Shown one piece after another: positions 341 to 19,416 of a DNA stretch of 21,288 nt. Source of the DNA: a virus. Position 1 is the first letter of the stretch. Each line of letters opens with the position of its first letter. Below the pieces are notes generated by a model. It was not told the DNA's origin. It saw only the letters and a program-made list of their open reading frames with translations, and ran no database searches. The stretch lies in the IMG/VR virus record IMGVR_UViG_3300034117_000167, positions 1 through 21,288 of that record. One strand, given 5' to 3'. A program made the position numbers and the translations under genes.

Positions 341-357
341 CTATCCCTAGGAGATAG
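341..357. repeat. Imperfect inverted repeat over stop codon and SD
   Basis: On the minus strand the sequence reads CTATC-T-CCTAGG-GATAG. The arms CTATC/GATAG flank a CCTAGG palindrome, with one extra base breaking the symmetry. It covers the TAG stop of the 153-residue gene (347-349) and the AGGGA SD-like sequence of the next gene. A hairpin here would tie access to that SD to ribosomes terminating at the upstream stop. The symmetry is seen directly; the regulatory role is inferred. Confidence 0.4.
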
Positions 358-808
358 TGCCTACGGCAATTACTTGCACGTGTAGGTTTCTTACTGTTCC
401 TGGTGCTGCAAATCTTACGTTAACCTTGCAGCCAGCCTTTGTGACATCTGAAATAGTTACAATTGCAGACTTGGTTGCATCAGTTACGTCACCAAAGATG
501 ACTGGCGTTGCAGTAACCACTGGGGGTCCATCAAAGGCGATCTCTGAGAACTTAACATCTGCTTCGCCCTTGCTGTCTGTAGACACATTCTCTGAATCAA
601 GTTTTACCTTTACGGTAGATCCAAAGAATGAAGTATTTGATGTTGCCTTGGTTGATACCACAGACTGGGTGTTGGTTGCCTTTACATAAGTCTTACCCTT
701 GCGTTGGTCAACAGCCTTGATTAAATCGTTAACGGCGTTAGTCAGTTCAAATAGGAAGGCAGCGTCAATTGGCTGTCCTCTTGATGGTGTTGGTAGTATT
801 TTAGCCAT
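347..808 (-). CDS. Small minor tail / fibre-like protein, 153 aa
   Basis: Begins MAKILPTPSRGQPIDAAFLF. The N-terminus (about residues 13-37) is a predicted amphipathic helix, followed by a Ser/Thr/Val-rich beta region. The C-terminal half alternates V/T/I in a pattern expected for a beta-sandwich, for example PPVVTATPVIFGDV. Short helix-plus-beta proteins of this kind occur late in tail modules as fibre, collar or decoration subunits. The assignment rests on position and composition, not on a recognised family. No SD is visible before the ATG. Instead a TATAAT hexamer ends 6 bases upstream, and the preceding gene stops at 815, so translation may be leaderless or coupled to upstream termination. 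The next gene, at 338, codes for a helix-turn-helix protein. Confidence 0.72.
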   Translation of the reverse strand: MAKILPTPSRGQPIDAAFLFELTNAVNDLIKAVDQRKGKTYVKATNTQSVVSTKATSNTSFFGSTVKVKLDSENVSTDSKGEADVKFSEIAFDGPPVVTATPVIFGDVTDATKSAIVTISDVTKAGCKVNVRFAAPGTVRNLHVQVIAVGTIS

Positions 809-8841: not shown

Positions 8842-9501
8842 TTATACCTCTTCCAGGCTCATGGACACGTTCCAAAAGTCGTGACCTTGTCCTCTTTTTT
8901 CTACTGAGTATGAGAAGTCTGAAAAGAATACTTCAATAACATCTGAATAGTTATTTAAGTTATTATATCTGGTTACTGGATCTGCAAAGTTATCGTATCT
9001 GTCATATGACAAGAATAGCCAGAATGAGCCCTTGTGGTTTTCATACCAGTCAATTAGTTCGATACCGCCTGCACCGCCATCTGCAGTAAACATCTGACTC
9101 ATTCCCTGAGAAGCCGTAGACGTTCTTCTTAAGATTGGAATACCTTCTTCATCAAAGTCTGGTGATGCAGCAAAGCCTCTAGATGGTAGTCTTTGCCATG
9201 ATGTTGAAATCTGTGTTTTATCAGCGATGTGGTATGAACGCATACGACCATTGACCATACGCTCACGCTTTTCAATTCTAGTTGGTTTAAAAGATATTTC
9301 CTGACGGTTGTGGTCAGATAGGATTAGGAAGGTCCCAGCCTCGTCAGGAGACGCTGCAATAATATCCCCATTAGAACCTAGTTCATAACCTACAGGGACG
9401 TAGAAGCCGTCTTCAGTGAGCGTTCCAGGGGTATCTGATAGAAGCATAGCCTGTGGTCTGCCCCACTTCTTTCTTCCTGCCATATATGCTGAAGTAGTCA
9501 T
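8842..9501 (-). CDS. Distal tail (Dit-like) / minor tail protein, 219 aa
   Basis: First gene after the tape measure gene and directly before the hub gene. That is the usual place of the distal tail protein, which forms the ring joining tube and tip in siphophages. It begins MTTSAYMAGRKKWGRPQAML. The C-terminal half contains an IELIDWYENHKGSFWLFLSY stretch, then a DVIEVFFSDFSYSVEKRG stretch and an ending NVSMSLEEV, a beta-rich layout common in Dit-type proteins. A basic central segment (RIEKRERMVNGRMRSY) is notable. The ATG overlaps the tape measure stop by one base (TAATG). An internal ATG at 9483 (MAGRKKWG) is possible but less well placed for coupling. The functional call leans on gene order. 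Confidence 0.75.
   Translation of the reverse strand: MTTSAYMAGRKKWGRPQAMLLSDTPGTLTEDGFYVPVGYELGSNGDIIAASPDEAGTFLILSDHNRQEISFKPTRIEKRERMVNGRMRSYHIADKTQISTSWQRLPSRGFAASPDFDEEGIPILRRTSTASQGMSQMFTADGGAGGIELIDWYENHKGSFWLFLSYDRYDNFADPVTRYNNLNNYSDVIEVFFSDFSYSVEKRGQGHDFWNVSMSLEEV
8847..8853 (-). promoter_or_regulatory. Ribosome binding site for the TTG start at 8840
   Basis: GAAGAGG on the minus strand ends six bases before TTG 8838-8840. It is formed by the last codons of the upstream gene (Glu-Glu-Val), whose TAA lies between the SD and the TTG. The next in-frame ATG is well inside conserved-looking sequence (residue 29), so the TTG start is preferred. Confidence 0.75.
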
Positions 9502-12500
9502 TATAGGTTATTGCTCCTGATTCGTTGTGCGTCAATCTGTCTAATTTGAGACATTACTGTCTGAGCAATGTCATTAGCACTTGCTCCTGCATTAGATACG
9601 TTTACGTTGACACTATAATTATACACTGAATCTCCGCCGTAGGTGCCATTATTGACTGACTTTAGATTGTCTACCCCAAACTTTTTAACTGCTGGCTGAG
9701 AAACAACGAACTCTCCTGGGGTTAGCATGGCAGGTACTGTGTCTGTTCCAACTGCAAAACCACCCTCAACAAATCTTTGTGGCATAATCATTCCACCCTT
9801 GGCGTAACGCTTTAGTTTATACGCAGCAGATTGACCTGTTCCGTCAAATGGGAAGGTTGTTTTATCCATGATGTTTCCGCTACCAGGATAGATTTTTTCA
9901 ATTGCGTCCTTTGTGTAGCCTGCCCGAATAAGATCATCCCTATATTCGTTAGCCTTATTTACACCAAACAAAAGTGTTGCACTTGGCTTTTTCAATTTTT
10001 CTAGTTCTTTTGTTAAGGCTGCCTCGCCACCGATAGCCTTTAGGAATTTATCATAGAATGCCTTGTTTGCTTTTGCTACTGGAATTCCTTCGGTATAAGG
10101 ATCGACATTGATTGTCTGTAGTGCACTAGCAATTTTTGAGTAAGCAGTTTTATAGGTTGCAAAATCAGCGTCATAAAAACTCTTAGAGTCTTTTAGCCAA
10201 TCAATTCTTGACTTTACCTCTGGTGAAAGCGAAGCAAGGAGGTCATTTCTTCTTGTCTCCATGTATTCGGTATTGAAAGCCTGTTGCCCTGCAGTTCTAT
10301 CCCCAGTATTGTACGTGGCATATCCTTGCTTATCTTTCATTAAGAATCCGTACTTAAGACCCTTTTCTTCTGCTGCAGCGTACTTGGCGTATAGTCCCTG
10401 CCACTTTGCTCTAAGACCAAGATCTTTGATTTGAGTCCCACCCTTAGCACTAAACACATCTGCATCCAGTTGGTTATCATATGCAAAATCAGTAAGTGCT
10501 TGGCTAGCATTGTCAAAGTTTGTCATCATGCCTTTATACGCTGTGTTGGCATCTCCCTTATCCATTTGAGACAGAAGTCCCTCAATCTTGCCAGTGCCTC
10601 TTTGATTAACGAAGTCAGCCTTTCCGATATCCTTAAAACTTGTTTTATATGTCGGATCTAGGTTTTTGTCTGTTGTAGTATCTTTAATGGTACCGTCGCC
10701 CTTGTCGCCAGTGCCAGAGCCACCAGAGTTAATGGTCTTAATAACCTTAGTAATAGGCTGAACAATTGGCTTGCTTGCTTCAGCGTTCTTTTTAATCTGC
10801 TCGGCTGTTTGAGCAATTAGAGAGTTTAGAATTTCCTTTTGCTTTGCAAGGATAACTTCATTTTGAACAATTTCGTCTTTTTTAATTTCAAGAACCTGAA
10901 GACTGATGTCGTACATTTTTTGCTCAAGGTCTACTCGTGTAAACTTTTGACCGTTAATCTCTACGGTTAGCGTATCTACCGCTCTTCTCTTAGCATCTTC
11001 TAGAGCCTTAACCTGTGCATCGGCTGCTGCCTGGGCTTGTTGTGCTCTTAGTTGTTGTGCAGCCTTTGCAGCAGCACCAATGTCACCACGTGACAGGGCA
11101 TCGGCAACGTCTAGTTCGCCCTGCTTTTGCTTCATAATTTCATCATTAACAGACTTTACCTCTTGCAGAGCCTGGATCTGTTTGTCATAAGCCTCGTTGA
11201 TCTTTTCTGCTCTCTTAGAAATGATGTCAAGACCGTTTTGGTAAACGTTGTTCTGTGCTTCTAAGGTGTCAATTCTAACTTGTGCATCGTCAATTTCATT
11301 TTGAACTTCACCCTTAGATAGTCTATCTGCTGCTAGAGATGCCAACTTTGACTTTGTGAGCATGTCAATTGCTTTCTTTTGTTCTTTCTGGTTTCCAATT
11401 AACTTAACGCCAGCAAGGGCAACCATCATGTCCGCATCTGCAAGCATTTCTGAAGATAGGGCTGAGTTCTTGTTTCCTAGAACCAAAGCCTTTGTGGCAT
11501 CTACTCTATCGTAAATAGACTTGGTAGCCTTCATACCCGACTCTTCTGCTTGTCTGAGTTTAGCAATTGCAGATATTTGATTCATCTGCTTTACAAAATT
11601 TGTAATCTTACCATTCTTGTCAAAGAATAGTTTCATGTACTTGTCTGCTTCTTCCTTTGGCATGCCTAGGATGTTGTCGATAATGTCTTGATTAATGCCA
11701 GCAGAGTATAGGTTTGTGGCAAGACCAGCAAAGGTGTTCTTGAAGGCTGCACCCTTCTTTGCAAAGTCTTGAAGAGTCTTAGACGAAGCCTCGTATCCAA
11801 CGGTTAGTTTTTGTGAGGCATCCGTAAGGTCTCTCACGCCCTTGACATAGTCGTCTAGCCACGATGCCGATGGACCAGAGCCACCTGTTGTCTTAGTCTC
11901 TGGTGTTGCAACAAAGGCATTGTCACCGATTAGGTTTGTTGTTGCTCTTTGTGCTAGCCACTGGATGTACTTTGTCTGAGCGTATGCTCCTTGTCCAGCA
12001 TATTGCTGTCCCTCTGCAGCAAGCCATGCCTTAAATCCTGGGTCATTGCTCTCTACCGTTCCAGAAAGAATAGAAACATATTCTAGATAAATCTGCTGAC
12101 CTTCTCTGCTGGTGATGCTGTTAAAATATGTTGAATCATCACGAAGAATAGCCATTTCTTCTGGATTCATAATCTTTGCATTTTGAACAATGTCTACTGA
12201 AAGTTTGCCCTTTGGAAGAGCCTTAATTTCATCAATGTCGTTCATAAGTTTTGTTTCCATGGTTGGGTTCTTAGAAACATAGTCTACGATAACTGGAACG
12301 TTGATGCTTGGATCGCCACTCATTCTGCCAAGTTCTTTATAGAGTTCAATTAGATTTTCTGATTGTTCTCCGTCAGTAACTGTTGACATCTTGGTGATAA
12401 AGTTTGTCTGAACTGTTTTGTTGAGTTTACCGTTTGGATCCACGAATAGGTTAGAAATTCCAAGAACATCATTCAGACCTGTTCCAGTTAGGTTTGCGCT

Positions 12501-15500
12501 AATGTTAATTGCTTTTTCAATTACCGATGAATCTGTAGCCATTAGGTCAGTTAGCATCAACATTGCCATTGGGTCTACCGTTGTGTTGAGCAGCATCTCC
12601 AGTTGGTATCTTTGAGTCTTATCAACAACGTTTGTCTGTATGTTTGACAGGGCTGCACCTGCAATGTCCTCCATTGCGGTATCTTTATACTTTTTGCCAA
12701 TAGCCTTTTCTGCACCAGCAAGCAACTGATCTTGGTAAGCACTGTTCTTGAAAGATGCTTCAATTTGATTCATGGTCTTTACGTTTTGGTCTAGCAAGCC
12801 CTGTCTGTCAGTGATGTATTTGTTTTGTAGTTCGTCAGCCTTTGCTGTATCTCCTGCAGCCTTTGCTGCAGCGATTCTCTTTTCGTAATCTAACTGCAAA
12901 GAGTCTAGAAGTTGCTTCTGTTGATTAATGGCGTTTGCCTGAATTGCTACGTTCGCTCCTGCAAGTTTACCAAGGCGTTCTGCATATGCTTCAGCACCCT
13001 TAAAGTATCCGTAGATTCCTCCAGCAACTGTTCCAATAACAGCACCAATTGCTGTTCCAACTCCTGGCATAATCATTGAGCCTGCCACTGCACCAGCAGC
13101 AGCACCTGCGCCAGCACCTGCAGCAGCCCAGCCACCAGCGTTCAGAGCCTCCATGCCAGTCATTCCACCATTTTGTTGCAAGTTTGTGGATGTAAGTTCC
13201 ATCTGTCTTTGAGACTCTTCAATTAGTTTAACTCTAATCTCTAGTTCATTGTCAAGGATGTTCTCTCCGTTTGGACCTAGCAGCGATGTGATTTGTCCAG
13301 CAAGTTTAATTCCTAGGTTTACGTTACCCATCTTTCTACCAATATTGATGGCAATACTTCTAGCCTGTGCAGGAGTGATTGCATTTGAAAGCACAGATGT
13401 TGCAAGTTGACTGAATAGTGCTGATTCTGTACCGCCAGCACCTACCGCTGCTGTTGACTGTCCTGCTGCCTTAATGAGGGAGGCTCCAGACTCAGAGTCT
13501 ACGAAACTTTCTCCAAATGTGGTCTTTCCGCTTACTACGCCGTATGGGTTTAATTCTTTTGCTCTACGCTTATCTAGAATTTCTGATGCAGAAACCTTGC
13601 CAGCGAATTCGGCTAAACTCTGAATAGCCTTTGCTCCAGAACCAATTGCACCGTTAAATTCTAGAACATTGTCAATGCCACGATTGATTGCCTCGTTGTA
13701 TTGAATAAATCCATAAACAACTAGTCCGATTGCTGCAATTCCCAAAGTTGCAAAACCCATGGTCTTGTTCATTTGCTGAAGCATCATTGTTAGCATTGAT
13801 AGACCACCAATTACTGGTGTAATTGCTCCTGCAAGTTCTCCAACCTTTCCACCTGCCATGGTTAGGGCACCAGATACCATGGAGGCAGTCATCATAATTC
13901 CAGAGATCTTGTTGCCAAAACCACCAACGGCACCCCTGCCATTTCCTGATGCCTGGTTTGCATTGTTTGCCTGCTCTAGATCAATAGTGTTTCCACGTTC
14001 CCTGGCTAGACGTGCTCGTTCCTGAATGACCTTTGACTCAGTTCCATTCTCTTTCATTTCTTCAATAAGAGCGTTTCTCTTGCCTTGCATTATCTGCTCA
14101 CGCTGTAATGCCTCGGCAATCTCTGCTTCAGTTGCCTGATTGGTGTTTAGCAGTTTTTCTCTGTATATGTCTTTTTGTACTTGTAATGCTAGGTATTCAT
14201 CATCAGTTGCAAGCAGTAGTTGTTCGGCAACCTGCACTCTTTGGGCATGAAGTTTTTGATCTGCCTGAATTTGTCTGTCAATACTGTCATTCCAGCGGTC
14301 AGCCATGCCTTGTGCCACAGTAGTGAGTTTTTCCTTGCCTGTCTCAAGACCCTTTGATACTAGGTCAAGACCCTTGCCTTTAACCTTAGATGCAAAAGCA
14401 CCAACTTTGTCTCTCATGGTTGGCTGAACAGGTGCAGAGAATGGTGCGTCTACGCCAGGGATACCGCCTGGGGGTGGGGGTGGAACAGAGTTAAAGCCTT
14501 GATTGTATGATTTTGCATCATCTGCACCGTCTTGACTAGAAAGTCTGTGAGGGCTATTTCTGTCACGGACTTCCATGTATGGATCATTTTGTGGCTGATC
14601 TAGTTTTGCTTTCTTTGCTTCTTCATATGCTTGAGCATCATTAGCACCATCTTGTTGTGCAACAACTTTGCCAGTTCCTGCAGCACGAATTTCTGCACCT
14701 GTTGAAGATGCAGGAATCTCTACACGGCTTCCACCACCTCGTTGAGCAACTGCCACAACTCCACGATTAAATCTGTCTACTGCTCCAGAAGTAAACTCTG
14801 TAGGATTCTGTACTGATGCCAGGTCAGAGACTGACATCTGTCCTCTCTTAACAATGTGAGATAGTTGCTGACCATCTAGTGTGGATGCGTCTCCTCCAAG
14901 AAGACCATACATGTCCTCATATGCTCGTTTTCTTGAGGTTGATTCGTAAGTTGTTTGACCAAGTGCTAACTGCCTTCTACCAATACCCTTGTTGGTTCCC
15001 TTACCTGTAATTCTTCTAACAGTATCATCTTCAAATGCGGTCTGTGTGTCAAGCACTTTTTCTATTGATGGTCCAACATTTCCAGCATACTTGTCTGACT
15101 TTGCTAGTTCTCTTGCCTTACGAGTATTTATTTCGTGATAAACTTCATCTGTTACCTTGGTAGTTAGGTCTCCAACTTCTTGTGCTACCGCTTTTGCCAA
15201 GTCGTTTGCAAACATTGCAAATTCTGGAACTCTTTGCATTTCTGCACGTAAAGTTTCTGGTGACATGTCCCCAACCGAGTGACCAATAGCCTCTGCGATA
15301 ATTGGAGCATATGTTTCTGTAGAAGCGTTTGCTGAAACCTGCTGGGCGTTTGCACCCTCTTTACCCATGGCACGATTTAGATTTCCTGGAATGTACTGAA
15401 CTGCATTTGAGTATGAGTGGAATTGTCCTGAAATATGACCTTGTGCAAATCTAGGAACATTTCCAGCAATAAGAGCCTTAACTAATTCTGGATTTCTTGC

Positions 15501-17588
15501 TACCGACTTTGCTGGGATTACGGCTTCACCATTAGAAACCATTGCAACGATAGAGTCCGATGTTCCAGTTCCAGGACCAGAGATGATTCCTCCGTCAGCA
15601 TACTTCTTTCCAACAGTTGTTGGCGATGCCCCCATAGGACCGTAAGCACCCTGTGCCGTAATATTTCTTCCATATGCTGCTGTTAGTGCATCTACTGCTG
15701 CTGCTTCAGATGTAAATCTTTGTGTAAGTTGTTGATGAACCTGGTCAAGCGATGCAGCAACTGCTGCTGCTCTGATCTGGGTCTCGGTCATGTACGATGT
15801 TGATTCGCCAAGGAATCCTGTTTCTTGAGTTGTCCTATTAATAAATGATTTAATACCCACAAACATCTTAATGAGGTTTGCAACACCGTTACCAATAAGA
15901 CCAACAGTCATTAGTAGTAGTGGACCCACACCAGCGACTAGCCCTGTAAATGTAATCCAGAAACTCTTTGCTCCATCTGACATCTTGTTAAAACCGTCAA
16001 GGAACTTGCCAACAAAGTCAATTACTGGAGTAATAGCCTTTAGGAATGCTTCTCCAATTGGTGCAAGTTTAACCTTGACATCCTCAACAGCCTTTTGGAA
16101 CTTAAACATTGGAGAACTTTCGACTCTCTTCAATTCTCGTTCAGATAGGATTGCAAGTTCTTCAGAAGTTGCGTTTGATAGTTCTAGAACCTTTTGTGCC
16201 TGAGTACCCTCTTTTACAACATTTTGGAATAGGGTGGACATACGTGCAAACTGGAACTTACCGAATAGTTGCTCAATTGCTCGTGCTCTGTTTAGTGGGT
16301 CAAGGGTGTCTAGGGCTTGTGCAAACTGAATGACTGTTCCCTTGATGTCTCCCTTGTTTGACTCTACAATTCCCTTTAGGTTAATACCAAATGATTGCAG
16401 GAATTCATTTGCCTTTCCAGTTGGATTAATCATAGATGCAATACCAGACTTTAGGGCGTTAGCACCCTCAGATGCGTTGATTCCACCTTCCTTCATTGCT
16501 GTTAGGAAGAACGCTAGGTCTTCTACGTCTCCACCAAGTTGTTTAATAACTGGGGCTGCCTTTGGAATAGCAACTGTCAAGTCCTCAATAGATGTTACAG
16601 TTTGGTTTTCAACTGCGTTAAGGAAGTTAATCTTTCCAGCCAAGTCTTCTGCTGCCAAGCCGAATGCATTTGTCAATGACATTGTTGTTTCTAGTGCTTG
16701 AGATTGCTCTACTGAACCAAGTACCGCCAGCCTTGTGGCATTGGCTACCTGCTCCATTAGGTCTGCTCCGACCTTACCTGCTGCTGCTGCCTCTGCAGCC
16801 ATCTCCATGGTTTGTGAGACTGCTACTCCATACTTGGTGTATTCTTGAGCAAGGATTTGAATGTCCTTGATCATTCCTTCAGTTTCTTTGGCAGTAGTGT
16901 TAAAATCACCGTACACACGCTTAAACTTGATAGAAGCCTTTTCAAGTTCCATGTACATTTTGGCTGCTGCAGTGCCTGCCATAGTTAATGGAACAGTAAA
17001 ACCAACCATCAACTGGCGACCTGCCCACTGGGTGTTCTTACCCCAGTTTAGTAGGTTTGTAGAGCCTTGCTTGAGTAGTTGGTTTAGGATCTGCTGCTTC
17101 TGAGCAGCGATTGCTGTCTTGGTACCCAGATCATCCATGTCCAGCACTAGTGGTCTGACGGCGATGGACTTCATTGCACCAGAGGCATCACGACCTAGTT
17201 GGATATATTGGGTTTGTAGGGTCTTAACACGTTCACGAGCGACCTTGTCAATAGTTGACATCTCGGTCTTGAACAGTTTACCAAAGTTCTTGGTTGCTCC
17301 ACCAGCATACTTAAAGTACTGTCCCATTGACAGTTTGTTCTTTTCAAGAGCCTCTGTAAACGACTCTGTGGTGGTTTTAATGTTTTGGATGCTGGCATTA
17401 AATTTGCCTGCAGCATTAATATCATTAATTAGATTTTGTCTAAGTTTTGCTGCTGCTGCTGCTTGTGTGGCAGAGCCACGAGCCATCTGTGTTTGGAAGG
17501 CTGAAATCTGAGACTGCAACGCCTTTAAGTTTGCCAAGGCTTGACTGGTATCAATATTTATATTGATATTAGTCTGAGAATCAGCCAT
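9501..17588 (-). CDS. Tape measure protein, 2695 aa
   Basis: The largest gene in the window. It sets tail length and probably takes part in DNA entry. The N-terminus has a helical, Gln/Ala-rich region. Residues about 180-410 carry a TP901-type tape measure core (WGKNTQWAGRQLMVGFTVPL, YTKYGVAVSQTMEMAAEAAA, GGDVEDLAFFLTAMKEGGIN). Hydrophobic segments occur near residues 540-580 and 1226-1296. A glycine-zipper-like AAGAGAGAAAGAVAGSMIMP stretch lies within about 1483-1536. Residues about 2080-2270 are a long coiled coil. The tape measure motif with GGF, GTDTVPAML, TPGEFVV lies near the C-terminus (about 2592-2650), and a second copy sits at about 660-714. The polyproline run (about 1036) and a repeated QDGA element (979, 1019) mark a flexible linker. 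Start: AGAGGTG lies seven bases before the ATG at 17588, 23 bases after the short chaperone gene. Confidence 0.96.
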   Translation of the reverse strand: MADSQTNININIDTSQALANLKALQSQISAFQTQMARGSATQAAAAAKLRQNLINDINAAGKFNASIQNIKTTTESFTEALEKNKLSMGQYFKYAGGATKNFGKLFKTEMSTIDKVARERVKTLQTQYIQLGRDASGAMKSIAVRPLVLDMDDLGTKTAIAAQKQQILNQLLKQGSTNLLNWGKNTQWAGRQLMVGFTVPLTMAGTAAAKMYMELEKASIKFKRVYGDFNTTAKETEGMIKDIQILAQEYTKYGVAVSQTMEMAAEAAAAGKVGADLMEQVANATRLAVLGSVEQSQALETTMSLTNAFGLAAEDLAGKINFLNAVENQTVTSIEDLTVAIPKAAPVIKQLGGDVEDLAFFLTAMKEGGINASEGANALKSGIASMINPTGKANEFLQSFGINLKGIVESNKGDIKGTVIQFAQALDTLDPLNRARAIEQLFGKFQFARMSTLFQNVVKEGTQAQKVLELSNATSEELAILSERELKRVESSPMFKFQKAVEDVKVKLAPIGEAFLKAITPVIDFVGKFLDGFNKMSDGAKSFWITFTGLVAGVGPLLLMTVGLIGNGVANLIKMFVGIKSFINRTTQETGFLGESTSYMTETQIRAAAVAASLDQVHQQLTQRFTSEAAAVDALTAAYGRNITAQGAYGPMGASPTTVGKKYADGGIISGPGTGTSDSIVAMVSNGEAVIPAKSVARNPELVKALIAGNVPRFAQGHISGQFHSYSNAVQYIPGNLNRAMGKEGANAQQVSANASTETYAPIIAEAIGHSVGDMSPETLRAEMQRVPEFAMFANDLAKAVAQEVGDLTTKVTDEVYHEINTRKARELAKSDKYAGNVGPSIEKVLDTQTAFEDDTVRRITGKGTNKGIGRRQLALGQTTYESTSRKRAYEDMYGLLGGDASTLDGQQLSHIVKRGQMSVSDLASVQNPTEFTSGAVDRFNRGVVAVAQRGGGSRVEIPASSTGAEIRAAGTGKVVAQQDGANDAQAYEEAKKAKLDQPQNDPYMEVRDRNSPHRLSSQDGADDAKSYNQGFNSVPPPPPGGIPGVDAPFSAPVQPTMRDKVGAFASKVKGKGLDLVSKGLETGKEKLTTVAQGMADRWNDSIDRQIQADQKLHAQRVQVAEQLLLATDDEYLALQVQKDIYREKLLNTNQATEAEIAEALQREQIMQGKRNALIEEMKENGTESKVIQERARLARERGNTIDLEQANNANQASGNGRGAVGGFGNKISGIMMTASMVSGALTMAGGKVGELAGAITPVIGGLSMLTMMLQQMNKTMGFATLGIAAIGLVVYGFIQYNEAINRGIDNVLEFNGAIGSGAKAIQSLAEFAGKVSASEILDKRRAKELNPYGVVSGKTTFGESFVDSESGASLIKAAGQSTAAVGAGGTESALFSQLATSVLSNAITPAQARSIAINIGRKMGNVNLGIKLAGQITSLLGPNGENILDNELEIRVKLIEESQRQMELTSTNLQQNGGMTGMEALNAGGWAAAGAGAGAAAGAVAGSMIMPGVGTAIGAVIGTVAGGIYGYFKGAEAYAERLGKLAGANVAIQANAINQQKQLLDSLQLDYEKRIAAAKAAGDTAKADELQNKYITDRQGLLDQNVKTMNQIEASFKNSAYQDQLLAGAEKAIGKKYKDTAMEDIAGAALSNIQTNVVDKTQRYQLEMLLNTTVDPMAMLMLTDLMATDSSVIEKAINISANLTGTGLNDVLGISNLFVDPNGKLNKTVQTNFITKMSTVTDGEQSENLIELYKELGRMSGDPSINVPVIVDYVSKNPTMETKLMNDIDEIKALPKGKLSVDIVQNAKIMNPEEMAILRDDSTYFNSITSREGQQIYLEYVSILSGTVESNDPGFKAWLAAEGQQYAGQGAYAQTKYIQWLAQRATTNLIGDNAFVATPETKTTGGSGPSASWLDDYVKGVRDLTDASQKLTVGYEASSKTLQDFAKKGAAFKNTFAGLATNLYSAGINQDIIDNILGMPKEEADKYMKLFFDKNGKITNFVKQMNQISAIAKLRQAEESGMKATKSIYDRVDATKALVLGNKNSALSSEMLADADMMVALAGVKLIGNQKEQKKAIDMLTKSKLASLAADRLSKGEVQNEIDDAQVRIDTLEAQNNVYQNGLDIISKRAEKINEAYDKQIQALQEVKSVNDEIMKQKQGELDVADALSRGDIGAAAKAAQQLRAQQAQAAADAQVKALEDAKRRAVDTLTVEINGQKFTRVDLEQKMYDISLQVLEIKKDEIVQNEVILAKQKEILNSLIAQTAEQIKKNAEASKPIVQPITKVIKTINSGGSGTGDKGDGTIKDTTTDKNLDPTYKTSFKDIGKADFVNQRGTGKIEGLLSQMDKGDANTAYKGMMTNFDNASQALTDFAYDNQLDADVFSAKGGTQIKDLGLRAKWQGLYAKYAAAEEKGLKYGFLMKDKQGYATYNTGDRTAGQQAFNTEYMETRRNDLLASLSPEVKSRIDWLKDSKSFYDADFATYKTAYSKIASALQTINVDPYTEGIPVAKANKAFYDKFLKAIGGEAALTKELEKLKKPSATLLFGVNKANEYRDDLIRAGYTKDAIEKIYPGSGNIMDKTTFPFDGTGQSAAYKLKRYAKGGMIMPQRFVEGGFAVGTDTVPAMLTPGEFVVSQPAVKKFGVDNLKSVNNGTYGGDSVYNYSVNVNVSNAGASANDIAQTVMSQIRQIDAQRIRSNNL

Positions 17589-17611: not shown

Positions 17612-17935
17612 TTATACTACTAGATTAGCAGTTGCTGCAGCCTGTGCGATCTTAAGACCAGAGGCTTCTTCCACGATTTCATATACTGTTGGAAGGTCAA
17701 GAAGGTCTTCCAACTCTTCTGGCTTTTCTGCTAGTTCTGGCTTGTATTGCTTCATAGCAATTGCCACACATTCTAGAAGAAGATCCATTGATTTTGCATT
17801 GTTGTCTGCAACCTCTGAAATCTTTTCAAACTTGTCCATGAATGGACGAAGTAGGGAAATCTTCAGTGGTCTGATGCTAATTTTAGTTCCGTCAAGCAGT
17901 GTAATTGTCTTTGCTTCATTTACGGTTGTTGCCAT
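17612..17935 (-). CDS. Tail assembly chaperone, short paralogue, 107 aa
   Basis: Sits immediately before the tape measure gene, where tail assembly chaperones normally lie. Its whole length matches the N-terminal half of the neighbouring 228-residue protein: both share PLKI, LR-FM-FE, a DN pair, C-IAM-QYKPE, an ED/D acidic patch and an E-A-G near the end. It lacks any C-terminal extension, so it corresponds to the short (lambda gpG-like) form. It ends GLKIAQAAATANLVV. An AAGGAGGA SD lies five bases before the ATG, the strongest in the window, and an extended -10 element lies upstream, so it is probably made in excess. The chaperone role is inferred from position, size and paralogy; no frameshift into a downstream frame is possible because the tape measure gene starts 23 bases later. 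Confidence 0.88.
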   Translation of the reverse strand: MATTVNEAKTITLLDGTKISIRPLKISLLRPFMDKFEKISEVADNNAKSMDLLLECVAIAMKQYKPELAEKPEELEDLLDLPTVYEIVEEASGLKIAQAAATANLVV

Positions 17936-17940
17936 TGTTT

Positions 17941-17948
17941 TCCTCCTT
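17941..17948 (-). promoter_or_regulatory. Strong ribosome binding site of the short chaperone
   Basis: AAGGAGGA on the minus strand, five bases before ATG 17935. It is close to the perfect anti-SD complement and contrasts with the long chaperone gene, which has no SD at all. A small palindrome (CCTTTAAAAGG) overlaps it and might slightly modulate access. Confidence 0.8.
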
Positions 17949-17963
17949 TTAAAGGTCTATATT

Positions 17964-17972
17964 ATTATAACA
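17964..17972 (-). promoter_or_regulatory. Extended -10 promoter-like element (TGTTATAAT)
   Basis: A perfect TG-n-TATAAT lies in the 54-base spacer between the two chaperone genes. Transcription would start near 17957 and give a leader of about 20 bases holding the AAGGAGGA SD. The -35 position (TAATTA, about 17987-17992) is not consensus. The site could drive extra expression of the short chaperone and the tape measure gene. The motif is seen; the activity is inferred. Confidence 0.5.
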
Positions 17973-17989
17973 TAAACAATAGTTTTTAA

Positions 17990-18676
17990 TTAGAGTTTCT
18001 CGTATGACAACCCCATCCCAATACCAAAACCAGCCTTTACCGCTTTTTGACCCTTTAGAGATGTTACATCATTTGGATCTCCACCCTTATTAAATACCTT
18101 GTTCTTCATTCTTTCCCAAGCATTCTCTTCTTGCTTTGTTGAGCCACCATCAATGTCTATTCCCTTTAGGGCTGCTAAAAATTTTCTTTCATTGTAAGAC
18201 TCTTCTCTCTTTGCATTGAGGGTCTCTGATAGTTCTGGCATGGATAGAGATGACTCAAGTTCTTCGTAGTCTTTCCAGATACCGAGCAAAAATACCTCCG
18301 ACTCTAACTTGGCAAGATCCATCGTCTCCCAAGAAGTGTTTTCTCTGTTGTTTGCTTGTTGACTAATTGGTTCGTCCGATTCTTCTGGTGCTTTTAGTGT
18401 AATCCCTGCTGCAATCTCTAGAACCTTGTAAAGACTGGTAATGTCAAAGGTGTCCTCAATTTGTTCAATTGTTTTGATTTCTGGCTTATACTGCATCATT
18501 GCGATTAGGGCACATTTAGAAACAAATGAGAATGCGTCTCCATTATCAGATGCTGTTTTAACGTTTTCAAACTCTTTCATAAATATCCTAAGATACTTTA
18601 TTTTAAGTGGGGTTAGGTATACTGGATCTCCATCTACGGTATAGATCATTTCAGAGTTATATATTTGAGTAGCCAT
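17990..18676 (-). CDS. Tail assembly chaperone, long paralogue, 228 aa
   Basis: The N-terminal half (residues 1 to about 97) is homologous to the neighbouring 107-residue chaperone (PLKIKYLRIFMKEFENV, then C-LIAMMQYKPEI). A linker rich in E, S, Q and N (about 97-115) leads to a charged helical C-terminal region: LAKLESEVFLLGIWKDYEEL, LSMPELSETLNAKREESY, KFLAALKGIDID. That region resembles the extension found in the long, frameshifted chaperone forms of other phages. Here it is fused in one continuous frame, so no frameshift is needed to make it. The ATG at 18674-18676 has no SD. A TATACT hexamer ends seven bases upstream, so the mRNA may be leaderless. It follows the terminator of the major tail gene, so expression is likely independent of that gene. 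The chaperone call is by order and paralogy. Confidence 0.85.
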   Translation of the reverse strand: MATQIYNSEMIYTVDGDPVYLTPLKIKYLRIFMKEFENVKTASDNGDAFSFVSKCALIAMMQYKPEIKTIEQIEDTFDITSLYKVLEIAAGITLKAPEESDEPISQQANNRENTSWETMDLAKLESEVFLLGIWKDYEELESSLSMPELSETLNAKREESYNERKFLAALKGIDIDGGSTKQEENAWERMKNKVFNKGGDPNDVTSLKGQKAVKAGFGIGMGLSYEKL

Positions 18677-18682
18677 CTACTA

Positions 18683-18691
18683 AGTATACCA
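18683..18691 (-). promoter_or_regulatory. Extended -10 promoter-like element (TGGTATACT)
   Basis: TG-G-TATACT directly follows the U-tract of the major tail terminator. Six bases (TAGTAG) separate the hexamer from the ATG of the long chaperone gene, placing the expected transcription start at the A of ATG. The same 12-base string TGGTATACTTAG recurs at 19470-19481. The -35 position (ACACTA) falls in the terminator stem and is poor. Confidence 0.55.
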
Positions 18692-18724
18692 AAAAGAAAA
18701 CCGCCTAGTGTTAACTAGACGGTT
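18691..18724 (-). terminator. Intrinsic terminator after the major tail protein gene
   Basis: On the minus strand AACCGTCTAGT and ACTAGGCGGTT pair over 11 positions (one U-G wobble) around a TAAC loop, followed by TTCTTTTT. It starts about 20 bases after the TAA of the major tail gene. On the plus strand the wobble becomes an A-C mismatch and no suitable U-tract follows, so it is oriented for the minus strand. Terminators behind highly expressed capsid and tail tube genes are common in phages. Confidence 0.88.
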
Positions 18725-18744
18725 CTCTACTATATTAAATTATA

Positions 18745-19416
18745 TTACGATGCTGCTGGGATGGTACGATCAATGATCTTACCGTAAGATGCATCGTTGT
18801 TTGGAAGCATTCTAAATGATACTTCAAACATGGTTGCTTCGTCACGCTTTGCTGATACTGTTACATTCTCAATTGAGAGTGCACGGTATGCAACATAGAT
18901 ACGCTCAATCTGCTCAGTTGGAGCACAGTCGCCTGTACCTGGACCAACTGCAACTAGACCACGCTCAATTGGGCATTCGCCCAAATTGCCTGCTGACAAG
19001 TTAAGAACTGATAGGTCTGGGTCGGTTACACCGTTGTCCCAGTCAGTGTCTGAGTTGCCTGCTGTTGCGTATAGAAGGTTTTCTAGAGTTGCTTCAGCGA
19101 ATGATGTGTTCAGGTTAACCTGCATTCCCTGCTTGTACAACTTTGCAACGTCAAGTAGTTGGTCAACCTGTACTTCACCGAAGTCAGGCTGGAACTGTAG
19201 TTCTAGACCATTGCTGGTGTAACCTACGTTCTTGAAGTTTGCTGCCTTTGCTGCGTCTCCGCTTGCTTGACCTGAGTAGCCAGATAGCGAGTCACGGAAT
19301 GACTTGCCATCAGCGTACGCTGGTAGATCGGTGTCTGCTAGTTCTCCGTCCTTGAAGACGAAGAGTGCTGCTGCACCAACGATAATGTTGGTATTGCTAC
19401 CTCTGCTGTATGCCAT
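18745..19416 (-). CDS. Major tail (tube) protein, 223 aa
   Basis: Located between the tail terminator-like gene and the chaperone/tape measure genes, the standard place of the tail tube subunit. It begins MAYSRGSNTNIIVGAAALFV and is beta-rich, with features such as LELQFQPDFGEVQVDQLLDV, a cysteine pair region (GECPIERG, GTGDCAPTEQ) and a C-terminal SAKRDEATMFEVSFRMLPN stretch. That ending is typical of tube proteins, where a strand near the C-terminus is followed by a small tail. AGAGGTG lies seven bases before the ATG (19424-19430), an extended -10 element lies 57 bases upstream, and a strong terminator follows, all consistent with an abundantly made structural protein. The specific tube-protein family is not identified; the assignment is by order, size and expression signals. 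Confidence 0.88.
   Translation of the reverse strand: MAYSRGSNTNIIVGAAALFVFKDGELADTDLPAYADGKSFRDSLSGYSGQASGDAAKAANFKNVGYTSNGLELQFQPDFGEVQVDQLLDVAKLYKQGMQVNLNTSFAEATLENLLYATAGNSDTDWDNGVTDPDLSVLNLSAGNLGECPIERGLVAVGPGTGDCAPTEQIERIYVAYRALSIENVTVSAKRDEATMFEVSFRMLPNNDASYGKIIDRTIPAAS

Follow-up and report, generated by a model that had tools for sequence, protein, structure and literature searches.

Short and long tail assembly chaperones probably encoded by two separate genes in a Stanwilliamsviridae-like siphophage lineage with relatives of frameshift layout

Introduction

Tail chaperone frameshifting is among the best conserved phage recoding events. In lambda (gpG/gpGT) and L5 (gp24/gp25), frameshifted short and long chaperones with a common N-domain are made from a single locus just before the tape measure gene (Xu, Hendrix and Duda 2004, as cited in PMC10274946). 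A 21,288-base virus fragment from IMG/VR (hereafter the window) raises the question of how the two forms are supplied when each appears to have a gene of its own, and how such an arrangement could have arisen. A preliminary description of the window had proposed that two complete, paralogous genes stand in place of a programmed frameshift, that their initiation signals are opposite, and that duplication followed by loss of the extension from one copy produced them. Here we examined these proposals by homology searches, structure prediction, a survey of related loci and phylogenetic analysis.

Results

Two complete genes precede the tape measure gene

The order on the minus strand of the window is major tail protein, long chaperone, short chaperone and tape measure gene, with the following features.

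18745..19416, minus strand: major tail protein gene (223 aa), matching phrog_2175 'protein with Ig domain' (E 3e-33)
18695..18728, minus strand: intrinsic terminator between the major tail protein and long chaperone genes, a 15-pair hairpin plus U run
18683..18691, minus strand: extended -10 box TGGTATACT of the long gene, ending 6 nt before the ATG; predicted leaderless start
17990..18676, minus strand: assigned long tail assembly chaperone gene (228 aa), matching phrog_10504 (E 3.5e-19) and phrog_10474 (E 2.5e-14)
17964..17972, minus strand: extended -10 box TGTTATAAT of the short gene, read from the sequence
17942..17948, minus strand: Shine-Dalgarno AAGGAGG of the short gene, 6 bases before the ATG, read from the sequence
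17612..17935, minus strand: assigned short tail assembly chaperone gene (107 aa), N-domain only, matching phrog_10504 (E 4e-17)
9501..17588, minus strand: tape measure protein gene (2695 aa), starting 23 bases past the end of the short gene

Both open reading frames were found complete and separate at these positions, as originally described, and the 23-base distance from the end of the short gene to the tape measure gene was also correct (tape measure start at 17588). The preliminary description had argued that this distance leaves no room for a frameshift product. The results bore this out: in relatives the gap measures 14–34 nt and all three relative frames occur. On the same grounds we rejected hidden frameshifting out of the short gene towards the tape measure gene. 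The nearest isolates point to a probably actinobacterial host; when bacterial genome contigs were scanned for a host or a prophage, no relative turned up.

The two proteins resemble annotated tail assembly chaperones

The shared N-terminal domain proposed earlier was recovered by BLASTP, which aligned short residues 1–94 with long residues 1–92 at 37% identity (E 9e-21). The positions PLKI, LR-FM-FE and C-IAM-QYKPE are common to both proteins, and both matched phrog_10504. In the long protein, the N-domain (residues 1–94) is followed by a linker and by an extension from about residue 115, with the phrog_10474 match covering residues 133–197.

A tblastn search with the long protein returned 128 phage records, 127 of them from Streptomyces phages, and reached genes annotated as tail assembly chaperone with E values down to 2e-21. 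The best Streptomyces matches were in two pieces, N-domain and extension, in different frames. Most Streptomyces relatives among the records examined are classified as Stanwilliamsviridae; between the major tail protein and the tape measure, they carry an annotated 'tail assembly chaperone' and a second ORF, and the homologue of the window's major tail protein, at the equivalent position, is annotated as major tail protein. In Emma1919, Stigma and Sham, the chaperone and the second ORF are annotated as one joined gene.

No Pfam family matched either window protein. Searching Pfam and the PDB by sequence with each of the two families, short and long, likewise gave no convincing family, and the Mycobacteriophage tail assembly family made weak contact with only 5 of 71 family members. 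AlphaFold2 models (pLDDT 75.8 for the long protein and 71.7 for the short) had the same N-domain layout of two strands followed by helices. Foldseek found nothing significant in the PDB for the long model. When PDB matches were re-aligned with VIA-align, the HK97 chaperone 2ob9 ranked first for the short model (Z 4.7, rmsd 4.8, 85 aligned), and YqbN 3klu (Z 5.3, rmsd 4.2, 84 aligned) followed by 2ob9 (Z 4.1, rmsd 4.9, 83 aligned) ranked first and second for the long model; these scores are weak, and they back a predicted fold like that of solved chaperones but do not prove it. Among predicted viral proteins, several that matched the long model are named tail assembly chaperone, including one of Arthrobacter phage Kitkat (E 8e-3).

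The pair thus has the location between major tail protein and tape measure protein seen in the annotated Streptomyces homologues, the common N-domain with a C-terminal extension on the long form, and homology to annotated tail assembly chaperones. The programmed-frameshift layout expected for a long form is missing, the extension being in frame in 279 of 279 duplicated loci with no conserved slippery site, and is present in sister lineages. Taken together, we consider it very likely that this pair encodes both tail assembly chaperones, short and long, of a Stanwilliamsviridae-like siphophage lineage and was duplicated from a frameshift ancestor.

Related loci are either duplicated or single-copy

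Related loci were gathered from IMG/VR using the long and short proteins, an alignment of the extension and two single-copy relatives as queries, and each locus was scored with profile models of the N-domain and the extension. Of 441 loci, 279 were duplicated, having a second N-domain copy and an extension that continues the first copy in frame, and 145 were single-copy, with the extension following the lone N-domain in the -1 frame. Streptomyces phages of the Stanwilliamsviridae are among the 145. The remaining 17 comprised twelve contig-end cuts or partial regions, three loci with a diverged N-domain and two with a frame change. No complete locus showed a mixed state, and the short gene adjoins the tape measure gene in every complete duplicated locus. 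Whole contigs contained two copies in three duplicated phages and one copy in seven single-copy phages. Near-copies and repeats of one contig were common, and distinct sequences numbered 163 for duplicated and 91 for single-copy loci. The chaperone pair lies far beyond chance, as 279 IMG/VR loci, representing 163 distinct sequences, repeat it with the same order and signals. Ancestral single-locus versions, which the preliminary description had predicted among relatives, were thereby found: the 145 single-copy loci have one N-domain copy, a -1 extension and a heptamer at a fixed site.

Two unusual sets of loci were also observed. In the single-copy loci L182–L184, the N-domain has diverged so strongly that the profile sees it as two pieces, with CCCAAAT and the -1 extension kept. 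In L130 and L424, which come from one contig (IMGVR_UViG_3300027734_000209), a one-base frame change splits the N-domain of the long gene and is probably an assembly error.

A slippery heptamer marks the single-copy loci

In all 91 distinct single-copy loci, a heptamer lies just after the N-domain at one aligned place (CCCAAAC 33, GGGAAAC 32, CCCAAAT 16, CCCGGAA 8, CCCAAAA 1 and GGGAAAT 1); 83 of the 91 have the canonical X_XXY_YYZ form, and the shift is -1 in 145 of 145 single-copy loci. Codons 90–125 of 180 duplicated long genes contained none of the ancestral heptamers. An X_XXY_YYZ heptamer of any kind was absent from this interval in 144 of the 180, the rest carrying scattered others, and 166 of 177 short genes had no heptamer near the 3' end. 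At the protein level, the shifted single-copy product corresponds to the long protein over its length, and the tail of the unshifted product (e.g. KLTDPNLLGAALVGTN) resembles the end of the short gene product (KLADATLLSNLVNN).

Within the nearby single-copy group (L251, L278, L306, L433 and others), CCCAAAY and GGGAAAC replace each other at one aligned codon, so that one slip site is swapped for another. In the public annotation of L003, L172 and other Streptomyces phages, the extension ORF is not joined to the chaperone by a frameshift and is entered as a hypothetical protein of its own, although a heptamer precedes it and it is in the -1 frame.

The two genes have conserved, opposite start signals

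The preliminary description had noted no Shine-Dalgarno for the long gene and a near-perfect one for the short gene. This opposition proved to be real and conserved, with AAGGAGG 6 bases before the ATG of the short gene; for the long gene, the absence of a Shine-Dalgarno held, and its reading was refined to an apparently leaderless start, not a weak site.

On the 5' side of the long gene, the terminator hairpin (-22.2 kcal/mol, z -5.4) is followed directly by TGGTATACT, six bases and the ATG. A hairpin with z below -2 preceded the long gene in 61 of 61 non-redundant relatives. The -10 box lay 5–7 nt before the long ATG in 69 of 76 non-redundant relatives, and in an earlier set it was observed in 55 of 61 against 1.7 of 61 expected in shuffles. 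No Shine-Dalgarno was found before the long gene in the 76 non-redundant relatives, and ATG was the start codon in 178 of 178 long-gene starts checked; TTG starts are frequent in single-copy genes. Leaderless genes, which are common in Actinobacteria, are marked by a TANNNT box some 12 bp upstream of the start codon (PMC3160421), and AUG is preferred by leaderless Streptomyces mRNAs (PMC8780764). Most of the long genes combine such a box with an ATG start and no Shine-Dalgarno. From these signals we infer that the long gene is leaderless, with transcription predicted to start at its ATG.

The short gene had a -10 box 18–45 nt upstream in 94 of 95 non-redundant relatives (median 26) and a Shine-Dalgarno of at least 4 nt in 95 of 95. 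A scan for sigma-70 promoters gave -35/-10 pairs no more numerous than in shuffles, and it is the constant placement of the -10 box among relatives, rather than the scan, that underlies the promoter claim. The single chaperone gene of nearby single-copy phages is preceded by a promoter, a leader and a Shine-Dalgarno, mostly behind a terminator in the examples shown, so the simplest reading is that the ATG of the long gene shifted to the former transcription start.

Elsewhere in the window, a 153-aa gene (347–808, minus strand) likewise lacks a Shine-Dalgarno, and its ATG lies 5 nt downstream of the extended -10 box TGATATAAT; leaderless starts may thus be used at other genes of this phage.

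The short copy is the more conserved one

The long and short genes are both under purifying selection, with a median dN/dS of 0.10 for the long N-domain, 0.08 for the extension and 0.04 for the short gene. The 90th percentile of the short gene reached 1.1, an upper tail that probably consists of out-of-register pairs compared without gaps. In 635 of 780 genome pairs, conservation was higher for the short copy than for the long N-domain, as expected if the short protein is the abundant form. Mean pairwise identity was 68% for the short copy versus 58% for the long N-domain.

Ancestry of the duplicated loci

The trees carry no inferred root. In the N-domain tree, the long copies formed one clade (99/99) and the short copies another (97/93), the latter placed among nearby single-copy frameshift phages, and the long clade attached deeper than a simple late duplication predicts. 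Long and short N-domains as one clade were not rejected (p-AU 0.34; 0.11 with fewer rows). In the extension tree, duplicated and nearby frameshift phages formed one group (96/81) whose internal order was not resolved; the duplicated group was not resolved as one clade there, and one clade was not rejected (p-AU 0.32). A first extension tree with few nearby frameshift phages had suggested a clean single transition, a reading weakened by denser sampling, which leaves the branching unresolved. In a quick tree of the major tail protein, two nearby frameshift phages branched first within the group and the other frameshift phages fell outside. Because frameshift lineages lie on both sides and frameshifting is general in siphophages, the frameshift state is likely ancestral, and the duplicated state likely arose once or a few times.

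The single-copy frameshift relatives, the protein tails and the trees support the earlier proposal of duplication followed by loss of the extension from one copy. The part of that proposal concerning the origin of the second copy may have been too simple: given the deep attachment of the long N-domain, the trees do not distinguish a tandem duplication from acquisition of a second, divergent copy. Under acquisition, recombination with another phage would have given the long gene a divergent N-domain joined to the extension already resident, the resident N-domain becoming the short gene. The nesting of the short genes with nearby frameshift lineages, the separate and deeper clade of long N-domains, and the clustering of the duplicated-group extension with the same lineages would all fit this course of events. 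However, the long N-domain evolves faster in both identity and dN/dS, so that long-branch pull can explain its deep placement, and the test of a joint long and short clade did not reject it. We therefore regard acquisition as possible but unlikely.

The extension tree, and weakly the major tail protein tree, place most nearby single-copy phages among or beside the duplicated ones, as they would if the duplicated state were old and these phages had reverted to frameshifting through loss of a copy, with change in both directions. Such reversal appears improbable: the short copies form one clade with the nearby single-copy N-domains outside it, joint regain of the heptamer, the -1 frame and the stop is unlikely, and the duplicated group as one clade was not rejected.

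Within one genome, the two N-domains share an average identity of just 43%, a divergence that could suggest that the short gene is no longer a chaperone isoform and has another role, the long gene acting as chaperone alone or with an unrecognised product. The short gene, however, is the copy with the lower dN/dS, retains a tail like that of the unshifted product and always lies beside the tape measure gene in complete duplicated loci, which makes a changed role quite improbable. Persistent frameshifting at an unrecognised site in the long or short gene is very improbable indeed. Poly-A or poly-T heptamers do occur in codons 90–125 of a minority of long genes, and a heptamer lies close to the 3' end in a few short genes, but no heptamer is conserved at these places. 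The extension, moreover, already lies in frame, and the short, frame-variable gap before the tape measure leaves no room for a product.

Discussion

The preferred reading is a duplicated frameshift locus whose two copies have each kept one product. In the ancestor, most ribosomes would have read a single gene to its first stop, giving the short form, and some would have slipped back one base at the fixed heptamer and read the extension, giving the long form. The locus would then have been duplicated in the two-copy group. The upstream copy would have lost the slippery site and been fused in frame to the extension, yielding the long form only, and the downstream copy would have kept the N-domain and the unshifted-like tail, lost the extension and yielded the short form only. 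Each copy would have its own promoter: the long gene, which follows a strong terminator and lacks a Shine-Dalgarno, would have its start codon at or right beside the point where transcription begins, and the short gene would use a promoter, leader and Shine-Dalgarno, probably together with read-through from the long promoter.

The short:long ratio is, judging by these start signals, probably set by gene expression instead of frameshifting; control by expression strength fits because the separate promoters and start signals are conserved. The short protein would be expected to exceed the long protein, and both chaperones presumably work on the tape measure protein in the manner of lambda gpG and gpGT. 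On balance, we lean towards the view that ratio control by a -1 slip was replaced by control of transcription and initiation, with a leaderless minor partner behind a terminator and a major partner with promoter and Shine-Dalgarno delivering the same two products.

The closest known systems are the Stanwilliamsviridae Streptomyces phages Emma1919, Stigma, Sham and Enygma, which carry a homologous N-domain and extension in the same interval between major tail protein and tape measure. Where the window has two genes, however, these phages have a single locus in which the reading frame changes by -1 at CCCAAAT or CCCGGAA, and their single chaperone gene is preceded by a leader and a Shine-Dalgarno, which the window's long gene lacks. 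The lambda and L5 chaperones are alike in comprising short and long forms with a common N-domain before the tape measure, but they use a single locus and a frameshift, and the window proteins had no Pfam match to the lambda or L5 families.

Separate short and fused long chaperones have already been reported from T4-like phages, some of which have a short gene and a fused long gene with no frameshift (Vladimirov, Gautam and Davidson 2022, via PMC10274946). As far as the arrangement is described there, the window shares all of its elements: a separate short gene, a fused long gene and no frameshift. The T4-like phages, however, are a different phage group, whereas the window's own family contains the frameshift state and has documented separate start signals. 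What is new is the switch inside one family with close frameshift-type relatives, together with the conserved pair of leaderless and Shine-Dalgarno starts. In the open-licence PMC literature, we found no report of duplicated siphophage chaperones or of a leaderless chaperone. One paper there deals with a frameshift whose position could not be found (PMC5679792), and another describes a phage cluster with no recognised chaperone (PMC12859696).

For annotators, these results mean that the absence of a slippery site need not indicate a missing chaperone. For the biology of the family, close relatives have either the frameshift layout or duplicated genes and the same two products, which makes the need for a fixed short:long ratio directly testable; whether expression strength can supply the short:long ratio is likewise testable across these close relatives.
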